The notes beneath the pieces were generated by a model that made no database searches, had not been told where the DNA came from, and was given only the letters and a program-made list of their open reading frames with translations. 64,000 bases of DNA from Gimesia chilikensis (lineage in GTDB: Bacteria; Planctomycetota; Planctomycetia; Planctomycetales; Planctomycetaceae): assembly GCF_007744075.1 (NCBI RefSeq), contig NZ_CP036266.1, forward strand, positions 5,379,748 to 5,443,747. Reading direction: 5' to 3'. The position numbers and the translations under genes were made by a program. Positions 1,595 through 48,371 of this stretch are shown here, one piece after another. Within the stretch, counting starts at the first letter, position 1; each line of letters opens with the position of its first letter.

Positions 1595-1980
1595 TTATGA
1601 GACAAAGTTGTATTACTTTATGTTTCATATGATAAGGTGCTGTAAAATGATAAGACACAATAATCTCGACTCTTAAAATTAACTGACTTGATGAGATAAC
1701 ACTAACATTGAATTATAAAACACAAACATGAAAATTGCCTTCGGTCTCTTAATGCCGGAGTTTGTTCCTTGGCAATAGATTAGTCAGGATCAAGCAGCGG
1801 AAATTGATACCGACTGGAAAGCTCTACATCAGTGCGACTGTGTCAATTCTCATGCCCCCCTTTCAAAATATTTCGTATGATTACATATGTCGAATTCCTG
1901 GATTATCATCTCAAGTTTACGATTCCCCGTCAGCTCAAGCACAAAACGAATTACCTCATTTTCAGGTCTAGTAATGCCGG
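1595..1980. other. Intergenic stretch, no gene seen
   Basis: AT-rich DNA between the LRR gene and the IS3 end. Short open frames here have no recognisable protein features. The nonamer TAATGCCGG occurs near 1749 and again directly before the IS3 terminus at 1981, but it is too short to interpret. Confidence 0.5.
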
Positions 1981-2011
1981 TGACCTGCCTCAAAAACCTG
2001 TACCAGGTCTT
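1981..2011 (-). repeat. IS3-type terminal inverted repeat
   Basis: TGACCTGCCTCAAAAACCTG and the next 11 bases form the transposon end. The reverse complement of about 30 bases of this end recurs, with one mismatch, at 45986-46016 (see that entry), showing that the same element family has acted elsewhere in the window. Confidence 0.7.
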
Positions 2012-38882: not shown

Positions 38883-39124
38883 GAGAAGAGCAAAAAGCAG
38901 AGCTCTGATAGTTATGCTAGAGGACTCATCTTATATGCCACATTTTGCGGCTGGATTTAGCTCTTTAAGCCATTTTATGTCCCTTCAGATAATCTCTGTA
39001 AGCAGTTGGAACATAAGGGGAGCGTTGTTGGCATGCTGGTGATCCGGAAACATCGCTCGATGTCCTGCACGAATTTGCGACGCTGATCAGTCTGCCCGGA
39101 TCCGTCTACAAGGTCAAAGGGATC

Positions 39125-39580
39125 GTGATCCCGCATTACCTGTTGAACCAGCGGCAACGTGGTCGGGCGATCGTTGAAGGGGCGATGTTCCTGGATGAAG
39201 CTGGCGTCGAATCCATGGAGAAATCCTGGAAGCTCCCCATGATCGGGATCCATTCCACGGTTTCAGTTCTTCCAGGGAAACAGATCACGAATCATGTGCG
39301 ACGTACTTTCGGTCATCGGGATCTGCAGCCTGGTGCGCTCATGAAGGCGGCCGTCCGGATCCAGGGCGACCTGGGCGTTACAACCCGGGTGATTCGCGTC
39401 GTCTCAGTTCGCCGGGAGGCCTTGAGCAAAATGGAACACGATCCCGATTACGGCCGACGGGAAGCGGAGCTCGAAGGCTGGCCGCAACTGTCCGGCCCCG
39501 AGTTCGTGAGCTGTTTCTGCAAGAAGTTTAAAGTCGTTCCGGCGACGCCGGTTACTCGGATCGAATTCACTTACGTTTGA
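39125..39580 (+). pseudogene. Phage-like protein, probably 5'-truncated
   Basis: The 151-residue frame from GTG 39125 continues open upstream to a stop near 39015, and the upstream codons also look coding (SLDVLHEFATLISLPGSVYK), but no good start exists there, so the N terminus is probably lost. The C-terminal part (EAELEGWPQLSGPEFVSCFC) has the LEGW-x-x-LSG-x-EF-x-x-F-C pattern of ASCH-like phage proteins. It overlaps the next small gene by four bases. Confidence 0.45.
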
Positions 39581-39774
39581 AGGGAGTTGAGGTGCAGGAA
39601 CCAAGAACGCTCGGTGATTGCAAAGTCGGAGAAAAAGTGACCTTGATCACTGGTCACGAGGTTGAATTGCTCGGAACGAATCATGAGTTCCCCAGCTGGC
39701 GATTAGTCAAGAATCTGGCCGATGGTGCTTTGTTCGAATATCACAAAACGTGCCGGCTGAAGGAAGGGAGTTAG
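39577..39774 (+). CDS. Small hypothetical protein
   Basis: A 65-residue, probably beta-rich protein (LGDCKVGEKVTLITGHEVEL, WRLVKNLADGALFEYHKTC). The start overlaps the end of the preceding frame, so it is coupled to that phage-like gene. A TCCGGGTAAT hairpin follows 17 bases after the stop. Confidence 0.45.
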   Translation: MKGVEVQEPRTLGDCKVGEKVTLITGHEVELLGTNHEFPSWRLVKNLADGALFEYHKTCRLKEGS

Positions 39775-39790
39775 TTCATTTGGATTAAGC

Positions 39791-39820
39791 ATGTCCGGGT
39801 AATGGTGATTACCCGGACAT
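39791..39820. repeat. CCGGGTAA hairpin, copy 1
   Basis: ATGTCCGGGTAAT (39791-39803) pairs perfectly with ATTACCCGGACAT (39808-39820), 13 bp, loop GGTG. It lies between convergent genes and could terminate both. Confidence 0.8.
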
Positions 39821-39858
39821 TATGAGACATCAGAAAAGTTCCTCCGAAACAAACTCCT

Positions 39859-40458
39859 TCATTTTGCAACTGACCGTACTGACCCTTCCTCCATATCAAA
39901 TTCATATTTGCCACTCGCCAGGTCATTGGCAAACGTGATTACAAAGTCCCCAAAACTCGGAGCAAGAACGTGTGATGGCCCTGTCTCATGCTGGAACTTG
40001 ATAAATTGTCCTACTACACCGTCGACAGCTGGGTCCATGTCTACGCAATGGTAGTCACCTCCGCCGTTATGAAGAACTGGAATCCAATGTGGATTCCACC
40101 ATATCTGTTTGATCGGTCCATCCGGCCTGGCATCTGAGTCGTCGAAGAGACCATTGTCGACTGGTTCCTTGAACATATTCCAAGTCGTGAGTACTTCATC
40201 TAGATCCATGAGGTAACCTCCTGGCAATACCCACATCTTGTTGTCACCGTTGAACATCAGATAGGTATCACGAAGATCGCTGGGTAGCTTGCACATGATT
40301 GCCTCCTCCACCGTTTCGAAGGCTGCATCACTCGCAGGAGATCCCCAATCAAAGAAGTCTGCATAGGGGGGCTCTTTGACATTGGCTTCGTACCAAGTAC
40401 GAATACTTGCCCAGGCCTTTTCTGTTTCGGTCATCTTGTTTTGATTCTCCGACTTCAT
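39859..40458 (-). CDS. SMI1/KNR4 (SUKH) family protein
   Basis: A 199-residue protein with the SUKH layout: the early Trp (WASIRTWYEANV), the LPSDLRDTYLMFNGDNKMWV segment, LMDLDEVLTTWNMF, QIWWNPHWIPVLHNGGGDYH and GPSHVLAPSFGDFV. SUKH proteins are frequent immunity proteins against polymorphic toxins; no cognate toxin is visible here. An ATG at 40434, with GGAG 11 bases upstream, is an alternative start. It lies between two CCGGGTAA hairpins. Confidence 0.8.
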   Translation of the reverse strand: MKSENQNKMTETEKAWASIRTWYEANVKEPPYADFFDWGSPASDAAFETVEEAIMCKLPSDLRDTYLMFNGDNKMWVLPGGYLMDLDEVLTTWNMFKEPVDNGLFDDSDARPDGPIKQIWWNPHWIPVLHNGGGDYHCVDMDPAVDGVVGQFIKFQHETGPSHVLAPSFGDFVITFANDLASGKYEFDMEEGSVRSVAK

Positions 40459-40512
40459 TTGGGATGAGTTACATCAGTTTCCTGGACATTCTATGATCTG
40501 GATATCAAACAA

Positions 40513-40546
40513 AGACCGGGTAAATGATGTTACCCGGTCTTTTCTT
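40513..40546. repeat. CCGGGTAA hairpin, copy 2
   Basis: AGACCGGGTAA (40513-40523) pairs with TTACCCGGTCT (40530-40540), followed by TTTCTT. It lies just upstream of the SUKH gene start. The sequence after it (TTATGCGCTGGGGTCAAGCA) resembles that after copies 3 and 6. Confidence 0.75.
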
Positions 40547-40732
40547 ATGCGCTGGGGTCAAGCATTTACTACTGGAAACTGTTGATCGCTTAACATTATG
40601 CAGAAATATTTTGGAACATCACAATCTGTCTGGGCATTGCATGCTGTGTTGATTGATTAATTTCAGAGCATCTGTTCATATGGTGAAGGAGACGCAAATA
40701 CAGAGCTAAGGAAATGATAAGGAGTGTATCCA

Positions 40733-41665
40733 ATGTCTGACGAGATCTACCAAATATCAAAAGGCTTAGGTGAATCAGCAAGTAAACCTCTTTGTAAATT
40801 GATTGGGGCAGTTCAATCTGCTGTGGGGATGGTATATGAACCTACCCACATTCGTCGCATTGCAAAAGCAGAGTCCGATAAACTTTTGATTATGGAAGAA
40901 ACTCAAATTGCGTTATCAGAATTAAGAGAGCGCGCAGTCGCCAGAATATCCAATACTGAAATTCGACGACAGGAAAATATAGAATCTATCGTTCATAATG
41001 CCTCAAATAATTTACCTGAAGAATGTTCTGAAGATCTTGTTGATCAAGACTGGATGGCTGATTTCTTCGATTGCTGTAAAGATGTTGGTAATGAGCAAGT
41101 ACAGTCACTCTGGGGTAAATTACTCGCTGGGGAAGTCACTGAGCCAGGTACTTATTCTCGGCGAGCATTGAATACATTGAAGTTAATGAGTTCAAGCGAA
41201 GCTTCTTTATTCATGCTAATTAGCTTTCGTATTTGGCATCTTGATGGTTGGCCAATTCTTTTAATCCCTAGTGATATGAGTGGGAAATGGTCTGATTCTT
41301 GCCCATTCAATTGGTCTCACATTTCAACTTTAACTGATGCTGGATTATTGGAATCAGATCTTAAAAATGAGATTCACTATCTAGATTCGCGAAAAGAGGA
41401 TTATGTATTTGATTACTTCGGCCAACGATTTATTGGTCGTACTAATCCAATTCATAATTCGATACTTTCTTGGATTAATTTTTCAGCAATCGGAGTTGAG
41501 CTTCTATCTTTGGTCGAAAAAGAAGGAGGCGTGAGGGACGACTATTATGATGATTGTGCTCAATACCTGTCTGTACCAAAATGGATTTCTGATGATTCAG
41601 ATGCCTGTATATTAGAAATACCTGATGAAGAACTTCTTCAGTCTCTTAATCTCAATCGACCTTAA
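40733..41665 (+). CDS. DUF2806-family protein
   Basis: A 310-residue protein. DUF2806 markers: KPLCKLIGAVQSAVGMVYEP with RRIAKAESDKL, then DWMADFFDCCKDVGNEQVQS, LWGKLLAGEVTEPGTYSRRA and LMSSSEASLFMLI. The family is often found near restriction and other defence genes but its activity is unknown. ATG 40733 follows AAGGAG; an upstream ATG at 40724 is rejected. A SIR2 gene follows 148 bases later on the same strand. Confidence 0.75.
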   Translation: MSDEIYQISKGLGESASKPLCKLIGAVQSAVGMVYEPTHIRRIAKAESDKLLIMEETQIALSELRERAVARISNTEIRRQENIESIVHNASNNLPEECSEDLVDQDWMADFFDCCKDVGNEQVQSLWGKLLAGEVTEPGTYSRRALNTLKLMSSSEASLFMLISFRIWHLDGWPILLIPSDMSGKWSDSCPFNWSHISTLTDAGLLESDLKNEIHYLDSRKEDYVFDYFGQRFIGRTNPIHNSILSWINFSAIGVELLSLVEKEGGVRDDYYDDCAQYLSVPKWISDDSDACILEIPDEELLQSLNLNRP

Positions 41666-41813
41666 TGATTTTTAGGATGTCTGATTCGCAACTCAAATTT
41701 CTTATTGTTCACTTCCTCCACGTCTATGATCAGATCTAATAAGTTCTTGTGAAAAATGATGCATGCTCTCGATCTTGATCACCAAAATATATCTTTAAAT
41801 CAGAGAATAATTC

Positions 41814-43205
41814 ATGACGCACTACTCAGAGTACCAGGAAAAATGCTCGAATGTCATTCGTGAAGTGATATCTGATCGCGGATGTCAACCAATTCTATTC
41901 GTTGGTTCTGGTCTGTCTAAACGATTTTTCGACGCCCCGAATTGGGATGAACTGCTTGAACATCTCTGCTCAACGTGCCCTGCGATTCAATATGAGTACG
42001 GATACTATAAGCAGAAATATGAAAGTATGCCCCAAATAGGGTCTATCATCGCAGAACATTATCGCGAATGGGCATGGAGTAAATCTGGAAAAAAACACTT
42101 CCCAGCAGAATTGTTTGGTGCGGATCTTCCCAATGATATATACATGAAGCATGCCGTAGCTCAACACTTCAATGATATTACTCCGACGCTTTCGAAAATT
42201 CGGAAAGTCGCTGTAAGGAAAGAAATAGAAGCATTAAGAAATATTCAGCCCCACGCTGTGATATCAACAAATTATGATCAATTTCTCGAACATATATTTC
42301 CTGATTATGAGCCCATTATTGGACAGCAAATACTTCGGGCAAATTACGTAAGCGTCGGAGAAATATTTAAAATCCATGGTTGTGCAACAAATCCCCAGTC
42401 ACTCGTACTCACAGCTGAAGATTATGAAGACTGGACCAGTAAAAAGAAGTATTTAAGTGCAAAGCTTCTTACTTACTTTGCTGAGCATCCGCTAGTCTTT
42501 CTTGGGTATAGTGGATCTGATGCTAACATTCGGGCAATTTTGTCGGACATTGACGAAATCCTTGCAGAGCCAGATGGTCTCGTATCGAATCTGTTTTTCA
42601 TTCGTTTTAATCGGAATGCTGAAGCTGCAGAAAATCTACCCACAGAGAAATTGATCGAACTTCAAGAGGGACGTTCAATTCGTGTACGAAATATCGATGC
42701 GAGTAACTATGAATGGATATTTAATGCATTGGGAACTGGAGCACCGATCGAGCACATTAACCCTAAAATACTCAGGGCATTATTGGCAAGAAATTATGAG
42801 CTTGTACGTCATGATATTCCGAGGAAGACAGTGCAGATCAATTTTGAGACATTAGAGCATGCCATAAATGTGGAAGGCCAATTCGCCCAGCTGCTCGGAA
42901 TATCCACTTTAGATAATCCAAGTGTATTCAACGCCGTCTATCCATTTACACTTTCGGGAGTGGCAAAAGAGCTTGGATATTCGTATTGGTCTCATGCAGA
43001 TAAATTGATCAAACAGATACGGGATGAACGTGGTGTTGACATTAAGAGCTTCGATAATAAATACCACATTACCGTAAAGACAGGATCGTCTGATACTTCT
43101 GTAACTCAGAAATATTCGCAGGCATGTGTGGACTTACTACAAGCCGTTAGGAATGGAACCGAGTACACCTTAGACCTCACAGAACTGAGTGGTCCCGATC
43201 AATAA
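41814..43205 (+). CDS. SIR2-family defence NADase-like protein
   Basis: A 463-residue protein. Residues 25-300 form a SIR2-like domain: PILFVGSGLSKRF (NAD-binding loop), AVISTNYDQFLE with Asn153, FKIHGC with His188 and VFLGYSGSDANIR. The remaining 160 residues are a separate helical domain that may sense the trigger or oligomerise. SIR2 domains of this defence type usually degrade NAD after phage sensing. No partner gene is certain; the DUF2806 gene just upstream is a candidate. Confidence 0.8.
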   Translation: MTHYSEYQEKCSNVIREVISDRGCQPILFVGSGLSKRFFDAPNWDELLEHLCSTCPAIQYEYGYYKQKYESMPQIGSIIAEHYREWAWSKSGKKHFPAELFGADLPNDIYMKHAVAQHFNDITPTLSKIRKVAVRKEIEALRNIQPHAVISTNYDQFLEHIFPDYEPIIGQQILRANYVSVGEIFKIHGCATNPQSLVLTAEDYEDWTSKKKYLSAKLLTYFAEHPLVFLGYSGSDANIRAILSDIDEILAEPDGLVSNLFFIRFNRNAEAAENLPTEKLIELQEGRSIRVRNIDASNYEWIFNALGTGAPIEHINPKILRALLARNYELVRHDIPRKTVQINFETLEHAINVEGQFAQLLGISTLDNPSVFNAVYPFTLSGVAKELGYSYWSHADKLIKQIRDERGVDIKSFDNKYHITVKTGSSDTSVTQKYSQACVDLLQAVRNGTEYTLDLTELSGPDQ

Positions 43206-43275
43206 AATCGTGATTGAGCATTGAGTGATGGGATCATGTATTTAATTCTTTCATAATCTTAAAAGGAGAGACGTA

Positions 43276-43413
43276 ATGGCCGCGCCATGTTGTGCAAACT
43301 GCAAAAGTAAGAGTATTTCTTGGACGACTGTAACTTATGGAGGGATTCAGGGAGTCTTGGTATTTTGTAGCTCTTGCGGTTCAATTATTAGCTGGGCTCC
43401 GAAACCTCAATAG
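43276..43413 (+). CDS. Tiny zinc-ribbon protein
   Basis: A 45-residue protein with two CxxC knuckles (CCANC near residue 6 and CSSCG near 32), a minimal zinc ribbon. AGGAGAG lies eight bases before ATG 43276, a strong site, which is why I accept such a short gene. It follows the SIR2 gene by 70 bases. Function unknown. Confidence 0.6.
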   Translation: MAAPCCANCKSKSISWTTVTYGGIQGVLVFCSSCGSIISWAPKPQ

Positions 43414-43476
43414 TCCAAAGTCTGAGAATTACCCTCATATTTGGATTGATGAGTCTATCTTGTGAATAGGGTTGTT

Positions 43477-43866
43477 ATGAAAAAAGAATTGAATCTGTCT
43501 TTGGATGTGTATTCACCTCGGTGGGGACGGAACGATACCTATAATTTATCTTTCGACCGTGAAGGAATTTCGATCTCGAATCAAAGTAATGCATTTAGTA
43601 CTTCTGCCAAGAAAGACGAATTCGGGTATTTCAGTTGGACTGGCTACAAAGATACGTTAGAGAAAAACTCACTCATGACTATCTTCGCCAATGACAGTAT
43701 CTATGCTCCATCAATTATTCCATTCGCTATCGAGAGTGCTTGGCAAAGCTGGATTGACGGAACCCCTGATGATGTGATTTCTCAAGCGATTATAGAATTG
43801 TTTGATTGGATCAGTTTGACAGCAGAGAATAAACCATCTTCTGACTATTGGGTGGGGATTTTTTAG
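43477..43866 (+). CDS. Hypothetical small protein, immunity-like size
   Basis: A 129-residue acidic soluble protein: beta-rich first half (LSFDREGISISNQSNAFSTS) and helical end (FAIESAWQSWIDGTPDDVIS). Size and composition are like immunity proteins, but no family is recognised. GTG 43462 is an alternative start. Confidence 0.5.
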   Translation: MKKELNLSLDVYSPRWGRNDTYNLSFDREGISISNQSNAFSTSAKKDEFGYFSWTGYKDTLEKNSLMTIFANDSIYAPSIIPFAIESAWQSWIDGTPDDVISQAIIELFDWISLTAENKPSSDYWVGIF

Positions 43867-43935
43867 GACGTCTATTATCACTGGGAGAATAATGCTCGCT
43901 GGGTGAGTGAGCAATTATGGCAACATAGAATATGC

Positions 43936-44337
43936 TTAATTCTCCGGAGAGGCATTTTGATCTTCGAGCCAAAATGGTATCTGGGAAAGGATGTCGCCTG
44001 ATTCTGTGACGAGCCTGGCAATATATTTGCCATATTCTGGGAATTCAGCTTCCGGGATGTGTGCCAATAGATGAAGGAGACCACGTGGATGTTCTGCAGA
44101 TATAGTAAGTGGCGCTGATCGTATTCCTTCGTATTCCGTCCTGGCGTCCGAAAATGTAATGAAAAGATTTGTCTCGCCGCGAATACTTGAGATGGCAATG
44201 AACGCGGACAAATCAAGGCAGATAGGCTTCGTACAGAGGAATGTACAAGACACGTCAATAAGGTTGTAACCATTGTTGGTTTTGACAGCCGATTTACAGA
44301 GTGTGAATGATTGAACTATGGGTGGGACCGATGCCAT
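43936..44337 (-). CDS. Hypothetical protein (DUF6941-like)
   Basis: A 133-residue soluble protein, probably a beta-sandwich: FTLCKSAVKTNNGYNLIDVS, FITFSDARTEYEGIRSAPLT and FPEYGKYIARLVTESGDILS. The pattern resembles DUF6941, proteins of unknown role. It is convergent with the preceding gene and stands alone on the minus strand. Confidence 0.5.
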   Translation of the reverse strand: MASVPPIVQSFTLCKSAVKTNNGYNLIDVSCTFLCTKPICLDLSAFIAISSIRGETNLFITFSDARTEYEGIRSAPLTISAEHPRGLLHLLAHIPEAEFPEYGKYIARLVTESGDILSQIPFWLEDQNASPEN

Positions 44338-44466
44338 ACCTTTTGCCTATTAATGATTGATTGAGTGAATTTTATTGTGTCCAAACCTATCAGGATTTCT
44401 GCCTATTATCAATTCACTCAGTGTGATCTGGTTTTCTCATTATTATTCATTTTCATGGTCAAGAGT

Positions 44467-44499
44467 GTCCGGGTAATAAGAGTTACCCGGACGTTTTTT
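44467..44499 (+). repeat. CCGGGTAA hairpin, copy 3
   Basis: GTCCGGGTAA (44467-44476), loop TAAGAG, TTACCCGGAC (44483-44492), then GTTTTTTC, the form of an intrinsic terminator. The following 60 bases (GGATTCAGATGTCGTGGTAA and onward to 44555) recur after copy 6 at 46061-46100. Confidence 0.8.
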
Positions 44500-44675
44500 C
44501 TGCACTGGTCCTGGATTCAGATGTCGTGGTAACGATGTTTTCCTGGACTATCTGCTGTGAGAGCAGTGGGGTTCAGGATGATCTATATGATAAATCCCGA
44601 GACAAACAGTCCGACACGGCCGGCGACGAGTAAACCGGCTGAAGACCGTTGTTCTGTAAAGGAAAGCCAACTCTA

Positions 44676-45212
44676 ATGAGCGATAAGAAACCATTTAGCT
44701 TTCTGAAAGGGTATTCATTTTCGTTTGAGGATGAGGGAAGAAAAATCGAATCTTGGTTCAGTTCTTTATCTGGTCAGGAAAAAGTGTTTGTGAATGGGGC
44801 TCAAGTATCGTCAAAGATAAATATTTCCAAAGAAGCACTTCACGAGTTTTCGATTGCTGATGACAGATACTCAATCAGATTGAATATAGTTGACCTCATC
44901 CGGGGGCCATTCGAATGCACATTGAGCAAAAATGGGAAGGAAATCAAACGACAGAAACTGATATTTCCTCCGGTACCTTCATTAAAAAACACATTTCGAA
45001 AAGTTTCATATTGGTTATCGTGTCTGTTCTACCTGTTTTTGTACGGCCTAGTAATATTCGCTTTAGTACTTGTCAAAGTTTACTGGAATCTTCCTGAAGA
45101 GTCATACTTAGCATTTATCATCGTATTACTCATTCTGAGCTTTACCATAATCGCTTACACTTTTCTTAAATGGTCCTCAGGAGTACAAGTTATAGAAGAA
45201 GATGTTCCCTGA
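44676..45212 (+). CDS. Membrane protein with cytosolic N-terminal domain
   Basis: A 178-residue protein: a beta-rich N-terminal domain (residues 1-100) and two membrane helices (about 110-132, 142-163, the first YWLSCLFYLFLYGLVIFALV). AGGAAAG lies before ATG 44676. No family is recognised. It is flanked by hairpin copies 3 and 4. Confidence 0.55.
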   Translation: MSDKKPFSFLKGYSFSFEDEGRKIESWFSSLSGQEKVFVNGAQVSSKINISKEALHEFSIADDRYSIRLNIVDLIRGPFECTLSKNGKEIKRQKLIFPPVPSLKNTFRKVSYWLSCLFYLFLYGLVIFALVLVKVYWNLPEESYLAFIIVLLILSFTIIAYTFLKWSSGVQVIEEDVP

Positions 45213-45268
45213 CCAACTGTGCTAAGTGAGAGACATTCTCTTACAAATTATCCGATTCCCGTTGATGT

Positions 45269-45290
45269 CCGGGTAATGTATATTACCCGG
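45269..45290 (+). repeat. CCGGGTAA hairpin, copy 4
   Basis: CCGGGTAAT (45269-45277) pairs with ATTACCCGG (45282-45290), loop GTAT. It separates the membrane-protein gene from the next cassette. Confidence 0.75.
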
Positions 45291-45364
45291 TCATATAAAC
45301 TGAGTTCTAAGCTCAGGCTGAGTGAGGAAAGTCGCATCCATTTTTCGTTCGGAGGTAAATCGTT

Positions 45365-45673
45365 ATGAAGTTGAAAATCCTAGTACCAGTTCTTCTGATC
45401 ATTGGGGTTTTCTTTTCAGCGTTTTATTATCGAAATGAATTGATACTTTATTGGCATACTGATCCTGAATTTCATGCCCGCTTTGAAAAAGTCAAATTGG
45501 GGCAAACTCAGCCTGAAATCGAGGCTCTGCTGGGTAAACCAGTTCACTCTTTACGGTTTGAGGATTCTTCAGATTTCGTTCTCGGTTGGCCACGGTATGA
45601 ACACATTACCTACGCTGTGCTGTTTCGTAATGATCGGGCAGAAATAATCTCTGATAGATTTGGCTCATTTTAA
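45365..45673 (+). CDS. Small exported BamE/SmpA-like protein
   Basis: A 102-residue protein with an N-terminal hydrophobic segment (ILVPVLLIIGVFFSAFYY), then FEKVKLGQTQPEIEALLGKP, the helix pattern of SmpA/OmlA-like domains, and a final beta strand. GGAGG precedes ATG 45365. It may be a periplasmic or envelope-anchored protein; role unknown. Confidence 0.55.
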   Translation: MKLKILVPVLLIIGVFFSAFYYRNELILYWHTDPEFHARFEKVKLGQTQPEIEALLGKPVHSLRFEDSSDFVLGWPRYEHITYAVLFRNDRAEIISDRFGSF

Positions 45674-45712
45674 ACATACGTTCGAATGGAAATCGCTATC
45701 AGAGAAGAATGG

Positions 45713-45741
45713 CCGGGTAATATCCGTTACCCGGTTTTCTT
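45713..45741 (+). repeat. CCGGGTAA hairpin, copy 5
   Basis: CCGGGTAA (45713-45720) pairs with TTACCCGG (45727-45734), followed by TTTTCTTTC, consistent with a terminator for the BamE-like gene. Confidence 0.75.
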
Positions 45742-45794
45742 TCTTCAAAGTTTAAAAAATAATAAGACGTATATTTAAAACGATCGGTATCGAT

Positions 45795-45986
45795 ATGGAT
45801 TTTCAGAACGCAACTTCCTTTGTCACATTCATCTTTGCGATATGTGGTTTTGTTTTTGGAGGTAATGCTTTGAGAAAAACTCATCTTTTAGAAAAAAAAA
45901 TTATTGAGATAGATATAGAGAATCGAATACTAGAGCTAGAAAAACTAAAGACAAAAACTCGCAAGCATGATTATGACCTGCCTTAA
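45795..45986 (+). CDS. Small membrane protein
   Basis: A 63-residue protein with one hydrophobic helix (TFIFAICGFVFGGNAL) and a charged coiled-coil-like tail. Its last codons (GACCTGCCT plus stop TAA) are part of the IS3-type end at 45974, so the natural C terminus may have been altered by that insertion. Confidence 0.4.
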   Translation: MDFQNATSFVTFIFAICGFVFGGNALRKTHLLEKKIIEIDIENRILELEKLKTKTRKHDYDLP

Positions 45987-46016
45987 AGACTTGGTACAGG
46001 TTTTTGAGGCAGGTCA
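45974..46016. repeat. Collapsed IS3 end pair
   Basis: TGACCTGCCT (45974-45983) and AGGCAGGTCA (46007-46016) are perfect inverted repeats. Bases 45986-46016 match the reverse complement of the IS3 end at 1981-2011 with one mismatch. This is a 43-bp remnant of an IS3-type element that lost its interior, abutting hairpin copy 6. Confidence 0.65.
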
Positions 46017-46036
46017 CGGGTAATACACGTTACCCG
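46017..46036 (+). repeat. CCGGGTAA hairpin, copy 6 (left-trimmed)
   Basis: CGGGTAA (46017-46023) pairs with TTACCCG (46030-46036). The outer TCC of the left arm is replaced by the IS3 end. The next 60 bases (GGTTTCAGATGTCCTGGTAA and onward) match those after copy 3. Confidence 0.7.
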
Positions 46037-46244
46037 GATTTCATTTTGCGCGGGACCTGGTTTCAGATGTCCTGGTAACGATGTTTCCCCGGACATCATG
46101 TCCACCGGTGTACTCTACCGTATGTTGAAATTACTGCAGATCGTATAGCTCGAAAATGGGGTAGCTATATAATGGGCATCACGGGAATGGAGAGAGAGAA
46201 CACGTGATTTTTAAACCAATAGTTTTCCTTTTCGGAGCCCCGCA

Positions 46245-46430
46245 ATGAAATTCGATTTCAAAATTGTAATTCAGTGCCCCAAATGCAACTGTCCCCACTT
46301 CTCTAAAACCGATCCTGGCAACGAGAACTCGGATCGAAGATGTACCTCCTGTGGTACTATCACCAGCTTAACGGAACTTCGGCGAATTGGTCGATCTAGG
46401 GCCGTCGATAAAATCAAAAAGTTAATATGA
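46245..46430 (+). CDS. Small zinc-ribbon protein
   Basis: A 61-residue protein with CPKCNC near residue 11 and CTSCG near 35, a classic zinc ribbon, and a basic C terminus (RRIGRSRAVDKIKKLI) suited to nucleic-acid binding. Function unknown. It is flanked by hairpin copies 6 and 7 together with the next gene. Confidence 0.55.
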   Translation: MKFDFKIVIQCPKCNCPHFSKTDPGNENSDRRCTSCGTITSLTELRRIGRSRAVDKIKKLI

Positions 46431-46462
46431 GCAGGTAACTGGTATCACCAGGGTAATTCAGA

Positions 46463-46720
46463 ATGAAAATCACTCCTGAAATTCAGGAAAAGATTAATCG
46501 CGTTAGAAAGGCGATTGAGAAGACTCAACTGGCTTTCGCGAGATCTGTCCCCCCTGAAGTCCGGTTACAGTTGAATCAGAATTACGATCGATTCAGAAAA
46601 CAGCTCTCCGATTCTGATATCCTCCGGATGACGCTGAAAGCGGACGTCATTACCCCCAGGGAGCCGGTTCATTCTTGGGATCTACCTCTCAGGCCGGCAG
46701 AACGGGGCGATTCCCGCTGA
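46463..46720 (+). CDS. Small hypothetical protein
   Basis: An 85-residue charged helical protein (EIQEKINRVRKAIEKTQLAF, VPPEVRLQLNQNYDRFRKQL). Starts 32 bases after the zinc-ribbon gene; its stop codon touches hairpin copy 7 at 46721. No family is recognised. Confidence 0.45.
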   Translation: MKITPEIQEKINRVRKAIEKTQLAFARSVPPEVRLQLNQNYDRFRKQLSDSDILRMTLKADVITPREPVHSWDLPLRPAERGDSR

Positions 46721-46748
46721 TGTCCGGGTAATGTGAATTACCCGGACA
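46721..46748 (+). repeat. CCGGGTAA hairpin, copy 7
   Basis: TGTCCGGGTAAT (46721-46732) pairs with ATTACCCGGACA (46737-46748), 12 bp, loop GTGA, directly after the stop of the preceding gene. Confidence 0.8.
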
Positions 46749-46797
46749 CATTTGGGGTCCGGCATGCTTTGAGGATTATGATTGAGGTGATTTAAAG

Positions 46798-47103
46798 ATG
46801 GGGATTGATTATCTTGACCTGCTTTTTCGTGCCGAAAAACGGTTTGACATTAAAATCCCACGGGAGAAAGCTCATGAGCTTCTCAATAACGGTAATACAT
46901 CCGATCCTCCCTCAAACGCTTGGACAGATATTCGGGTTTCTGATTTTGTTGGGTTGATAGAAACTCTGGTGTCAGAACAGAATCCGGAATACAATCTCGA
47001 AATATTTGAAAGTGTTAAGCAGGATATAATCGAATGCCTGCATGTTGAGGAGAGTGAGGTCACACTTGATGCATGGCTGTATCGCGACCTTGGGATGGAG
47101 TAG
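46798..47103 (+). CDS. Acyl-carrier-like protein without the usual serine
   Basis: A 101-residue protein whose ends read GIDYLDLLFRAEKRFDIKIP and VTLDAWLYRDLGME, like paired halves of small planctomycete acyl-carrier-like proteins. The DSL phosphopantetheine motif is not visible; GIDYLD is at that position but lacks the serine. It may be a degenerate carrier or a structural homologue. Confidence 0.45.
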   Translation: MGIDYLDLLFRAEKRFDIKIPREKAHELLNNGNTSDPPSNAWTDIRVSDFVGLIETLVSEQNPEYNLEIFESVKQDIIECLHVEESEVTLDAWLYRDLGME

Positions 47104-47130
47104 GATCGTGATTCGATTGGCGAATTAAAT

Positions 47131-47149
47131 GTCCGGGTAATAAGAGTTA
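47131..47149 (+). repeat. CCGGGTAA hairpin, copy 8, left half
   Basis: GTCCGGGTAATAAGAGTTA is identical to the left arm and loop of copy 3, but the right arm is absent. The matching right half TTACCCGGACGTTTTTC is at 47628-47644, 478 bases away. Confidence 0.7.
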
Positions 47150-47627
47150 AGGCACCTCCTTGTTAAAAGATTATGATGATGAATGATGGAAAAGAAAAAG
47201 TTGTTCCTAATCGAAGGAACTTCAAAAGCTTTGTATGGATAGCATTTTCGTTTGTTTTGATTTGCGTTGCAGTAATAGTGTATGGATCTATTAGCCTCCC
47301 CAACATCCAAACATCACAAACAAATTTAATGATCGTTAATAAGACAAACAGACTTATTAAGAATTGCGTGATCCATAACGAAAATGGTACTGAAATAATC
47401 AAAACATCTATTTCACCCAGTAGTACTTTTTTCGGATTTATTGGTGATGATGTGAAGTCCTTGAATTTGTTTATACATGTGACTTTTGCAAATGGAACTT
47501 CTATTTCAGCAGAAGACGTTGTTCGTGGCGTCGATGGTCATACGCACCGGTTTGACTCAATTATAGTTGAAGTTAAGAATACACATATTTCATCAAAATC
47601 AAAAATAACTCAAAAAGGTGCCAACTT
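47150..47627 (+). mobile_element. Small insertion splitting hairpin copy 8
   Basis: The insert is bounded by TTA at both sides (47147-47149 and 47628-47630), a possible 3-base target duplication, and carries GGCACCT near its left end (47151-47157) and AGGTGCC near its right end (47616-47622) as inverted repeats. It contains one gene and no transposase, so it could be a non-autonomous element or a recombination product. Confidence 0.4.
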
Positions 47628-47649
47628 TTACCCGGACGTTTTTCATTAA
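47173..47649 (+). CDS. Single-pass membrane protein carried by the insertion
   Basis: A 158-residue protein with a basic N terminus, one membrane helix (VWIAFSFVLICVAVIVYGSI) and an extracytoplasmic beta-rich domain. The last codons (FYPDVFH) are read from the right half of the split hairpin, so the present C terminus was created by the insertion. No family is recognised. Confidence 0.45.
   Translation: MMMNDGKEKVVPNRRNFKSFVWIAFSFVLICVAVIVYGSISLPNIQTSQTNLMIVNKTNRLIKNCVIHNENGTEIIKTSISPSSTFFGFIGDDVKSLNLFIHVTFANGTSISAEDVVRGVDGHTHRFDSIIVEVKNTHISSKSKITQKGANFYPDVFH
47628..47644 (+). repeat. CCGGGTAA hairpin, copy 8, right half
   Basis: TTACCCGGACGTTTTTC equals the right arm and T-run of copy 3 (44483-44499). 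A further isolated ACCGGACGTTTC follows at 47691. Confidence 0.65.
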
Positions 47650-47758
47650 TGGATGGCCCCTATTTCGCGATATCTTTTCATTTAAGGCCTACCGGACGTT
47701 TCCAGCCAGCGACGCGATACAGGGCCTCATACGGGCGAATCTGCCAAAATCGGTGATT

Positions 47759-47956
47759 TCAGCGATTATCTGAGGGTTTCACCTGGGGAGGCTCCGGAAT
47801 CTGGATCTGTTTGCAGATTTCTTGAATCCTGGGAGCCAGTATCTCTCTCACCAGGCCGCGGAGTGATTTTCCCTGGCGAGCTGCGTAAATGCTTAGTGGA
47901 CGCCACTCTTCGATCGTCTTCAGGTCGACCGTTACCCGCTTTGTCTTTCTGATCAT
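47759..47956 (-). CDS. Small ribbon-helix-helix-like protein
   Basis: A 65-residue protein: KRVTVDLKTIEEWRPLSIYA and ARQGKSLRGLVREILAPRIQ form a strand-helix-helix pattern like CopG/Arc DNA-binding proteins, followed by a Pro-rich tail. No partner toxin gene is apparent. It may be an autoregulator from a mobile element. Confidence 0.5.
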   Translation of the reverse strand: MIRKTKRVTVDLKTIEEWRPLSIYAARQGKSLRGLVREILAPRIQEICKQIQIPEPPQVKPSDNR

Positions 47957-48119
47957 CTATTGCCCTTGACTTTTGATCGTGAGTCAACGCGAAATTATAC
48001 CTGCGAGGATGAGCCGAGACCAATGAGGGATCAGAAAGTTTCGGTGAAATCAAGAGCGGATGAGCATGGAAGCGAGTCCGCTTTATATCATTTCTATCCC
48101 AGGCAAGGAAGCCGGATCA

Positions 48120-48236
48120 ATGCTGGATAAACTCCCCCTCAACGGTAAGAAGACTTATGTTGTCGCTGCCCTTACCGTCGTCTATGCCGTCTGCGGAATT
48201 CTCCTGGGCGAGATGCCCTGGCTCTGCTCCTTCTAA
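48120..48236 (+). pseudogene. Truncated phage-type small membrane protein
   Basis: A 38-codon frame starting LDKLPLNGKKTYVVAALTVV and continuing YAVCGILLGEMPW. This start resembles small phage/prophage membrane (holin-like) proteins that normally continue for another 20-60 residues. AAGGAAG lies before ATG 48120. The abrupt end suggests truncation. Confidence 0.45.
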
Positions 48237-48371
48237 ATGATGATTTCTACTTAGTATTCTGGAATACATGGATCTTTCTTGGTACGATCAGGCCTGGTAG
48301 ACAATCGAGCACTCCCTTCTCTGCCAAAACTTCAACATTTTCAAGTGAGCAACATTTCCGGAGTATTTAAA

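Follow-up and report, generated by a model that had tools for sequence, protein, structure and literature searches.

Integrons and the dif modules of Acinetobacter are two well-known bacterial stores of exchangeable one-gene cassettes. Integron cassette genes nearly all share one orientation, and the R″ and R′ boxes of attC sites read RYYYAAC and GTTRRRY. Here, we describe an array of small genes separated by palindromic 28-bp sites in a 64,000-nucleotide stretch of the Gimesia chilikensis chromosome (NZ_CP036266.1, positions 5,379,748 to 5,443,747; the window). It resembles the pdif/dif modules of Acinetobacter plasmids and chromosomes, which, in the available text of PMC13141974 and PMC12907356, have 28-bp 11-6-11 sites with a variable 6-bp spacer and carry small gene modules that form arrays ("module islands") and are shuffled by crossover within the site. 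Each such site comprises an 11-bp XerC arm, a 6-bp spacer, and an 11-bp XerD arm, according to the accessible portion of PMC13141974. Unlike these modules, the arrays described here have two like arms that are unlike the likely host dif, a prophage setting in planctomycetes, unlike neighboring spacers, and possibly a phage-encoded enzyme. Integrons and clusters of attC sites lacking an integrase (CALINs), including the phage-borne ones covered in the available part of PMC9892861, likewise form arrays of mostly one-gene cassettes, with relic arrays that have no enzyme. In contrast to them, our arrays have no integron integrase over the cut-off, no attC consensus, and a mixed gene orientation. 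A literature search on integrons, dif modules, prophage cassettes, and Gimesia prophages found such arrays described nowhere, with most subscription papers outside its coverage.

We propose that recombination sites of the Xer/dif type, 28 bp long, bound mostly single-gene cassettes, and that the arrays are the cargo of a family of tRNA-integrated prophages in one planctomycete genus. We assign this reading a probability of about 0.62. The geometry of the sites, the form of the cassettes, the prophage setting, and the movement with breaks at the sites or at the spacer edge are evident from the genome comparisons presented below.

Architecture and distribution of the sites

The pattern CCGGGTAA-N6-TTACCCGG has six exact copies in the window, starting at 39795, 40516, 44469, 45269, 45713, and 46724. 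These are all the exact copies in the 8.29-Mb genome, and 100 dinucleotide shuffles of the window gave 0. The recurring hairpins reported by a sequence-only reading of this stretch are real: from 39.8 to 47.6 kb, it contains six perfect copies as well as worn and split copies. That reading had suggested a search of related genomes for a 90-bp unit; an element was found in the genus, and it is the 28-bp site. The prophage setting and the dif-like geometry go beyond what had been read from the hairpins.

Our sample held 59 genomes: the window's own, 16 of its genus, and 42 others (single genomes are denoted G000, the window's own, and upward). Perfect cores were found in nine of the 59, all nine within the genus, and in none of the 42 outside it. 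At up to three mismatches, sites were present in 15 of the 17 genus genomes, with 0–78 per genome: 78 in G003, 34 in G016, 25 in G002, 19 in G013, 8 in G010, 7 in the window's genome, and none in G001 and G015. A reversed-pattern control gave 0 in all genomes scanned (17 of the genus). An exact scan of genome contigs, from which near genomes may be left out, returned one Planctomycetaceae metagenome-assembled genome, and the exact scan of viral contigs returned 0 matches. One late region (L077) has two perfect single arms, TGTCCGGGTAA, at 1400 and 1476, 76 bp from each other; neither has a partner.

The aligned genus sites show well conserved 11-bp inverted arms, TGWCCGGGTAA and TTACCCGGWCA, with a near-random spacer between them. 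Of 153 sites, 149 have a 6-nt spacer and the remaining four a 7-nt one. The TAA/TTA bases at the spacer edges are close to invariant, and the ends of the spacer are mostly Y...R. Sites of the dif and pdif kinds have the same 11-6-11 bp layout.

Cassettes and their movement

Across twelve loci, one open reading frame (ORF) was found in 88 of the 107 site-to-site intervals of 120–4000 bp. The median interval length was 699 bp, with 45 bp from stop to site and 138 bp from site to start. The cassette ORFs ran in both directions, 78 with the phage and 55 against it. Family searches (Pfam, PADLOC) took 101 of the 133 cassette ORFs and four window ORFs, and revealed a diverse cargo: 105 Pfam families in 105 proteins, with no family exceeding three members and with TIR and TPR at three each. 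This diversity speaks against the immunity-gene array to which the sequence-only reading had likened the locus. Its suggestion to check whether gene content between the units varies turned out well, for the content does differ among genomes.

The behavior of homologous flanks was compared for pairs touching a site, excluding sites <300 bases from the start of a locus or <330 from its end as well as double coordinates. Unlike DNA was found across the site in 108 of the 127 pairs. The ends of shared segments lay within 20 bp of a site in 53 of 123 cases (33 non-redundant segments); a circular-shift control with 1000 shifts gave a mean of 5.6 and a maximum of 19. The early regions of G003 and G002 are 94% alike. 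These two genomes share a 1674-bp segment of 99.9% identity, which terminates with a site whose far-side arm differs.

The exchange point was examined in 15 independent pairs with at least 88% identity over at least 150 bp, each site being used once; the spacer comparison likewise dropped pairs below 88% identity or 150 bp. A mismatch limit of four was applied here and in the arm-pairing and neighboring-spacer analyses. The arms on the shared side agreed at 10.7 of 11 positions, versus 9.1 for random pairs (reached in 0 of 5000 draws), and the spacers at 4.4 of 6, versus 1.9 (0 of 5000 draws). The far arms agreed at 8.9 of 11 positions, versus 9.1 at random (P = 0.78). The spacer was retained with the shared flank, at four or more matches, in 11 of the 15 pairs and lost in four, which places the exchange at one or the other spacer edge. 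Next to the SUKH gene common to G009 and the window, the spacer of the following site (window site 2, ATGATG) is inverted between equal arms. Cassette shuffling at the sites is, on these alignments, well supported.

Prophage setting

All arrays placed by reading their flanks sit between early and late phage genes. The early side carries a tyrosine integrase, a replication-initiation-like protein, and a DUF4031 protein; the late side carries the small and large terminase subunits, portal, S49 protease, Mu-gpT-like head, tape measure, and Gam-like proteins. The arrays without placed bounds are the second of G013 and several short ones of G003. The prophages of G016 (~3,603,007 to 3,649,870) and G010 (~2,710,550 to 2,752,713) are bounded by direct repeats at tRNA-Phe, of 46 and 49 bp, and one of the G003 prophages (~4,384,682 to 4,423,318) by a 57-bp direct repeat at tRNA-Leu. 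In this last element, the sites span 4,391.4 to 4,419.4 kb, which is ~28 of 38.6 kb, and the late genes are mostly lost. The element (G003:C1:4384682-4423318; L023, L024, L075), mostly array, retains integrase, replication-like, and small-terminase-like genes; it may be a decayed prophage or a phage satellite. A reading of the repeats as phage operator sites was rejected, since the late regions and ends that were scanned have none. Of 294 genomes in the phylum searched with the Gam-like protein, three gave a match, all in the genus. Window positions 39041–48218 are, judged by blastn, the relic of an array-bearing prophage, because both ends match the flanks of related prophages.

The prophages are mosaic, with up to five related elements per genome, and a Gam-like gene is present. 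The 28-bp palindromes could accordingly be imagined as mere shared sequence at the module borders of mosaic phages, where phage or host enzymes swap modules by homologous recombination; unlike neighboring spacers would then be no obstacle. This is the strongest of the competing explanations, but we consider it unlikely. It leaves the fixed 6-nt random spacer and the near-invariant TAA/TTA edges without reason, and it fits poorly with a far arm that is random up to the last variable positions although the spacer is retained.

Candidate recombinase and chromosomal dif

The enzyme of the arrays is presumably a tyrosine recombinase. The tRNA integrases were rejected for this role: they belong to two families, which did not retrieve each other in the searches made, that stand beside the same kind of sites, and therefore provide no explanation of the shared site. 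Their att repeats are tRNA ends. A second, Xer-like recombinase of 295–297 aa is encoded besides the tRNA integrase in G016, G010, and G003 (72–79% identity). The gene lies 2.4 kb (G016) and 1.7 kb (G010) inside attR; the G003 copy follows the Gam-like gene of a different prophage at a distance of ~25 kb, and a remnant is found in the tRNA-Leu element. The residues R, K, R, H, and Y are invariant and stand at the expected places of the motif. The protein matches the XerA, XerC, and XerD profiles below their cut-offs, and the solved structures nearest to it are XerC/XerA-like proteins and XerH. It is the best candidate for the array enzyme, and we infer that it acts at the sites. XerH/difH and archaeal XerA are single-protein Xer systems that resolve chromosome dimers, each at one site, whereas here many sites bound cargo genes. 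The nearest solved relatives of the 295-aa protein belong to these systems, XerH/difH being the one of PMC5241119.

The sequence TAATGTCCGTTATGTTAA occurs once in 15 of the 17 genus genomes, and the two without it are the least complete. The candidate site ACGTCCGATAA-TGTCCG-TTATGTTAAGT was found in this form or nearly so in the nine copies read (G000:C1:2854090-2854107 in the window's genome, L044), and is likely the chromosomal dif of the genus, as predicted from sequence. Its spacer is of the T...G type (TAA-TGTCCG-TTA), and its 11-6-11 layout is like that of the array sites. A second dif-like sequence with its own arms, TAATGGTGGTTATGTTAA, was seen at G000:C1:707263-707280 (L053) and G001:C1:3038488 (L054), and also in G005; it possibly belongs to a mobile element.

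The layout and the T...G spacer shared with the likely dif, together with two strong Xer-like genes in each of the six genomes in which all tyrosine recombinases were listed, raise the question of whether the host XerC/XerD serve the array sites, as for pdif modules. We regard this as improbable: the array arms differ from the predicted dif arms at 6 and 7 of 11 positions, which is chance level once the TAA is fixed. A separate observation is that the window's genome encodes a 298-aa Xer-like recombinase in two copies of equal score, L001 (G000:C1:5358687, ~20 kb before the window) and L002 (6989235).

Protein site or RNA hairpin

The two arms of a site differ on average at 1.79 pairs. They are perfect in 23 of the 151 unique sites, and at least one mismatch is present in 128. 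Variation at arm positions 4 and 5 is uncompensated (z = 1.0 and −0.4). These features suggest that the site resembles a protein-binding dyad of fixed spacing more than an RNA hairpin. An Rfam search of the site gave no match. Terminator calls were obtained for only three window sites (40513, 45710, and 46013), on at least one strand. The terminator-like sites numbered 12, compared with 8.2 in shuffles, which is no clear excess, and the compensated stem with a T run of intrinsic terminators was not found.

The genus alignment is A-rich before the site and T-rich after it. This composition, the three calls, and the position close behind the stop codons of the 88 single-ORF intervals would suit terminators or insulators of phage cargo genes ("morons"), spread by copying along with the genes. 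This explanation seems to us slightly less credible still than service by the host enzymes, in view of the uncompensated positions, the mismatched arms, the fixed loop length, and the small difference from shuffles; a terminator role may nevertheless be a second function of the sites. The sequence-only reading had taken a terminator-bearing unit for a recombination border. The border is upheld, with unlike neighbors beyond the sites and homology breaking there, whereas the terminator as the point of the unit is unsupported because of the fixed 6-nt spacer, the little compensation, and the few scoring window sites. A repetitive extragenic palindromic (REP)/terminator-only reading was rejected on the same fixed spacer, poor arm compensation, and few calls. 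Integron cassettes (CALINs) with unusual attC sites, brought to mind by small unrelated genes that stand in a row, with a site at their 3′ ends, and by one cassette protein of PF21648 ("Integron cassette protein"), are very improbable, as no IntI-type integrase (TIGR02249) scored over the cut-off in the 17 genus genomes, the orientations are mixed (78 to 55), the site pattern is a palindrome of ~28–32 bp, and its ends GGGTAAY...RTTACCC, compared by eye, misfit the RYYYAAC/GTTRRRY consensus.

Proposed mechanism

Tyrosine recombinases cut at spacer edges. In the Xer/dif-type mechanism that we favor, such an enzyme would bind the two like arms and carry out strand exchange where the 6-bp spacer meets them; a cassette would therefore retain the arm of its own side, and the spacer would travel with either side. 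Cassettes would thereby drop out, be acquired, or pass from one co-resident prophage to another. The enzyme would be the 295-aa Xer-like protein encoded besides the tRNA integrase, and its reach would extend to arrays at other places in the same cell. A relic that lacks the enzyme, such as the window's, would stay silent as long as none is supplied in trans. A more specific proposal, to which we give somewhat less than even odds, is a phage-encoded integron-like platform, where the prophage family's own single Xer-type recombinase would act on palindromic dif-like sites with free spacers. Cassettes would be collected, inverted, and traded within and between co-resident prophages, and some of these would end as element-sized arrays (~28 of 38.6 kb) without most late genes.

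Several findings weigh against the Xer/dif-type mechanism. The 295-aa recombinase is absent from G002 (25 sites), G013 (19 sites), and the window's genome, and therefore loss, help in trans, or another enzyme must be assumed. No array site was found near its gene in the stretches scanned, and its AlphaFold model is too poor for use (mean predicted local distance difference test score, pLDDT, of 48). Arm position 2 pairs above chance (z = 4.3), with weaker values at positions 0, 1, and 7 (4.0, 2.5, and 3.8). Adjacent spacers are not alike, with at least five matches in 2 of 116 pairs in direct comparison (2.7 expected) and in 2 when inverted (2.8 expected). In Acinetobacter, Xer recombination is reported for identical or nearly identical spacers only, in the available text of PMC13141974. 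Four of the 15 exchange pairs show a spacer that did not stay with the shared flank, and the invariant inner bases TAA/TTA mask the exact exchange base.

Features of the window

The window sites were scored by mismatches to the 28-bp consensus TGWCCGGGTAA-N6-TTACCCGGWCA. A 65-aa ORF (39577–39774, +) lies ahead of site 1 (39792–39819, spacer TGGTGA, 0 mismatches). The SUKH-1 cassette gene (PF09346; 39859–40458, −), with a DNA match in the genus in G009 only, is followed by site 2 (40513–40540, spacer ATGATG). A scan with the SUKH protein over 84,980 species was uninformative. Next come the DUF2806 gene (PF10987; 40733–41665, +) and the SIR2_2 gene (41814–43205, +), a PADLOC candidate defense family (PDC-S25, 9e-86); both have no DNA match elsewhere in the genus. 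Pfam agreed with the SUKH, DUF2806, and SIR2 assignments of the sequence-only reading for the genes between the copies. A gene for the PF21648 protein (M1E1E6-like; 43462–43866, +) and an ORF without a Pfam match (43936–44337, −) precede site 3 (44466–44493, spacer TAAGAG). A dispersed repeat of ~60–90 nt occupies 44341–44433 and matches many genomes of the genus, on both strands.

Site 3 has a worn inverted partner (44522–44549, 5 mismatches). A 178-aa ORF whose translation contains hydrophobic stretches (44676–45212, +), site 4 (45266–45293, spacer TGTATA), an ORF (45365–45673, +), site 5 (45710–45737, spacer TATCCG, 3 mismatches), and an ORF (45795–45986, +) lead to site 6 (46013–46040, spacer TACACG, 6 mismatches). 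Its left arm is worn (in the copy at 46017, the first C of this arm is gone), and it also has a worn inverted partner (46068–46095, 2 mismatches). The stretches after copies 3 and 6 (44498–44548 and 46044–46094), described earlier as 60 shared bases, are indeed 84% alike; each is mostly a worn inverted site copy, and two sites in inverted orientation, the second of them worn, make up the supposed 90-bp unit. A short inverted-repeat element adjoining site 6 (45986–46026) recurs at window positions 1971–2011, and in G009 and G001. An uncertain, possibly decayed site (46428–46455, 6 mismatches) lies between two ORFs (46245–46430 and 46463–46720, both +), which are followed by site 7 (46721–46748, spacer TGTGAA, 0 mismatches). 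The 101-aa ORF behind it (46798–47103, +) occurs in several genomes, beside sites with other neighbors in G013, G003, and G002.

Site 8 is split into a left half (47130–47149; left arm, spacer TAAGAG, and TTA) and the right arm TTACCCGGACG (47628–47638), with a 158-aa ORF (47173–47649, +) in the splitting DNA that a DNA search did not find elsewhere in the genus. The splitting DNA (47141–47627) starts with AGGCACC and ends with GGTGCC and a few bases, with TTA on either side. It is single-copy in the genus and may be an insertion or a cassette with other arms. The left prophage relic (39041–39580, +) is the 3′ part of an array-border gene (window ORF 39125–39580) and matched five prophage loci by blastn (L027, L028, L029, L030, and L034); the gene has no Pfam or PHROG match. 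The right relic (47642–48218) matched L027, L029, L030, and L032, and contains a border ORF (47759–47956, −) and a truncated ORF (48061–48237, +) that we read as holin-like. The relic is neighbored by an AAA-ATPase gene on the left and a long ORF, TPR-like by eye, on the right.

Implications

The analysis supplies a candidate dif for the planctomycete phylum, where an earlier survey failed to identify one, as stated in the available text of PMC3025954. The proposed two-part system, one protein and one 28-bp site, is small and directly testable. If the Xer/dif-type reading is true, these arrays would add a third arrangement to the two well-known cassette stores, borne by prophages and built on dif-like sites unlike the likely dif of the host. 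Cassette platforms would then have arisen repeatedly from tyrosine recombinases, and phages would have gained a way to trade cargo.

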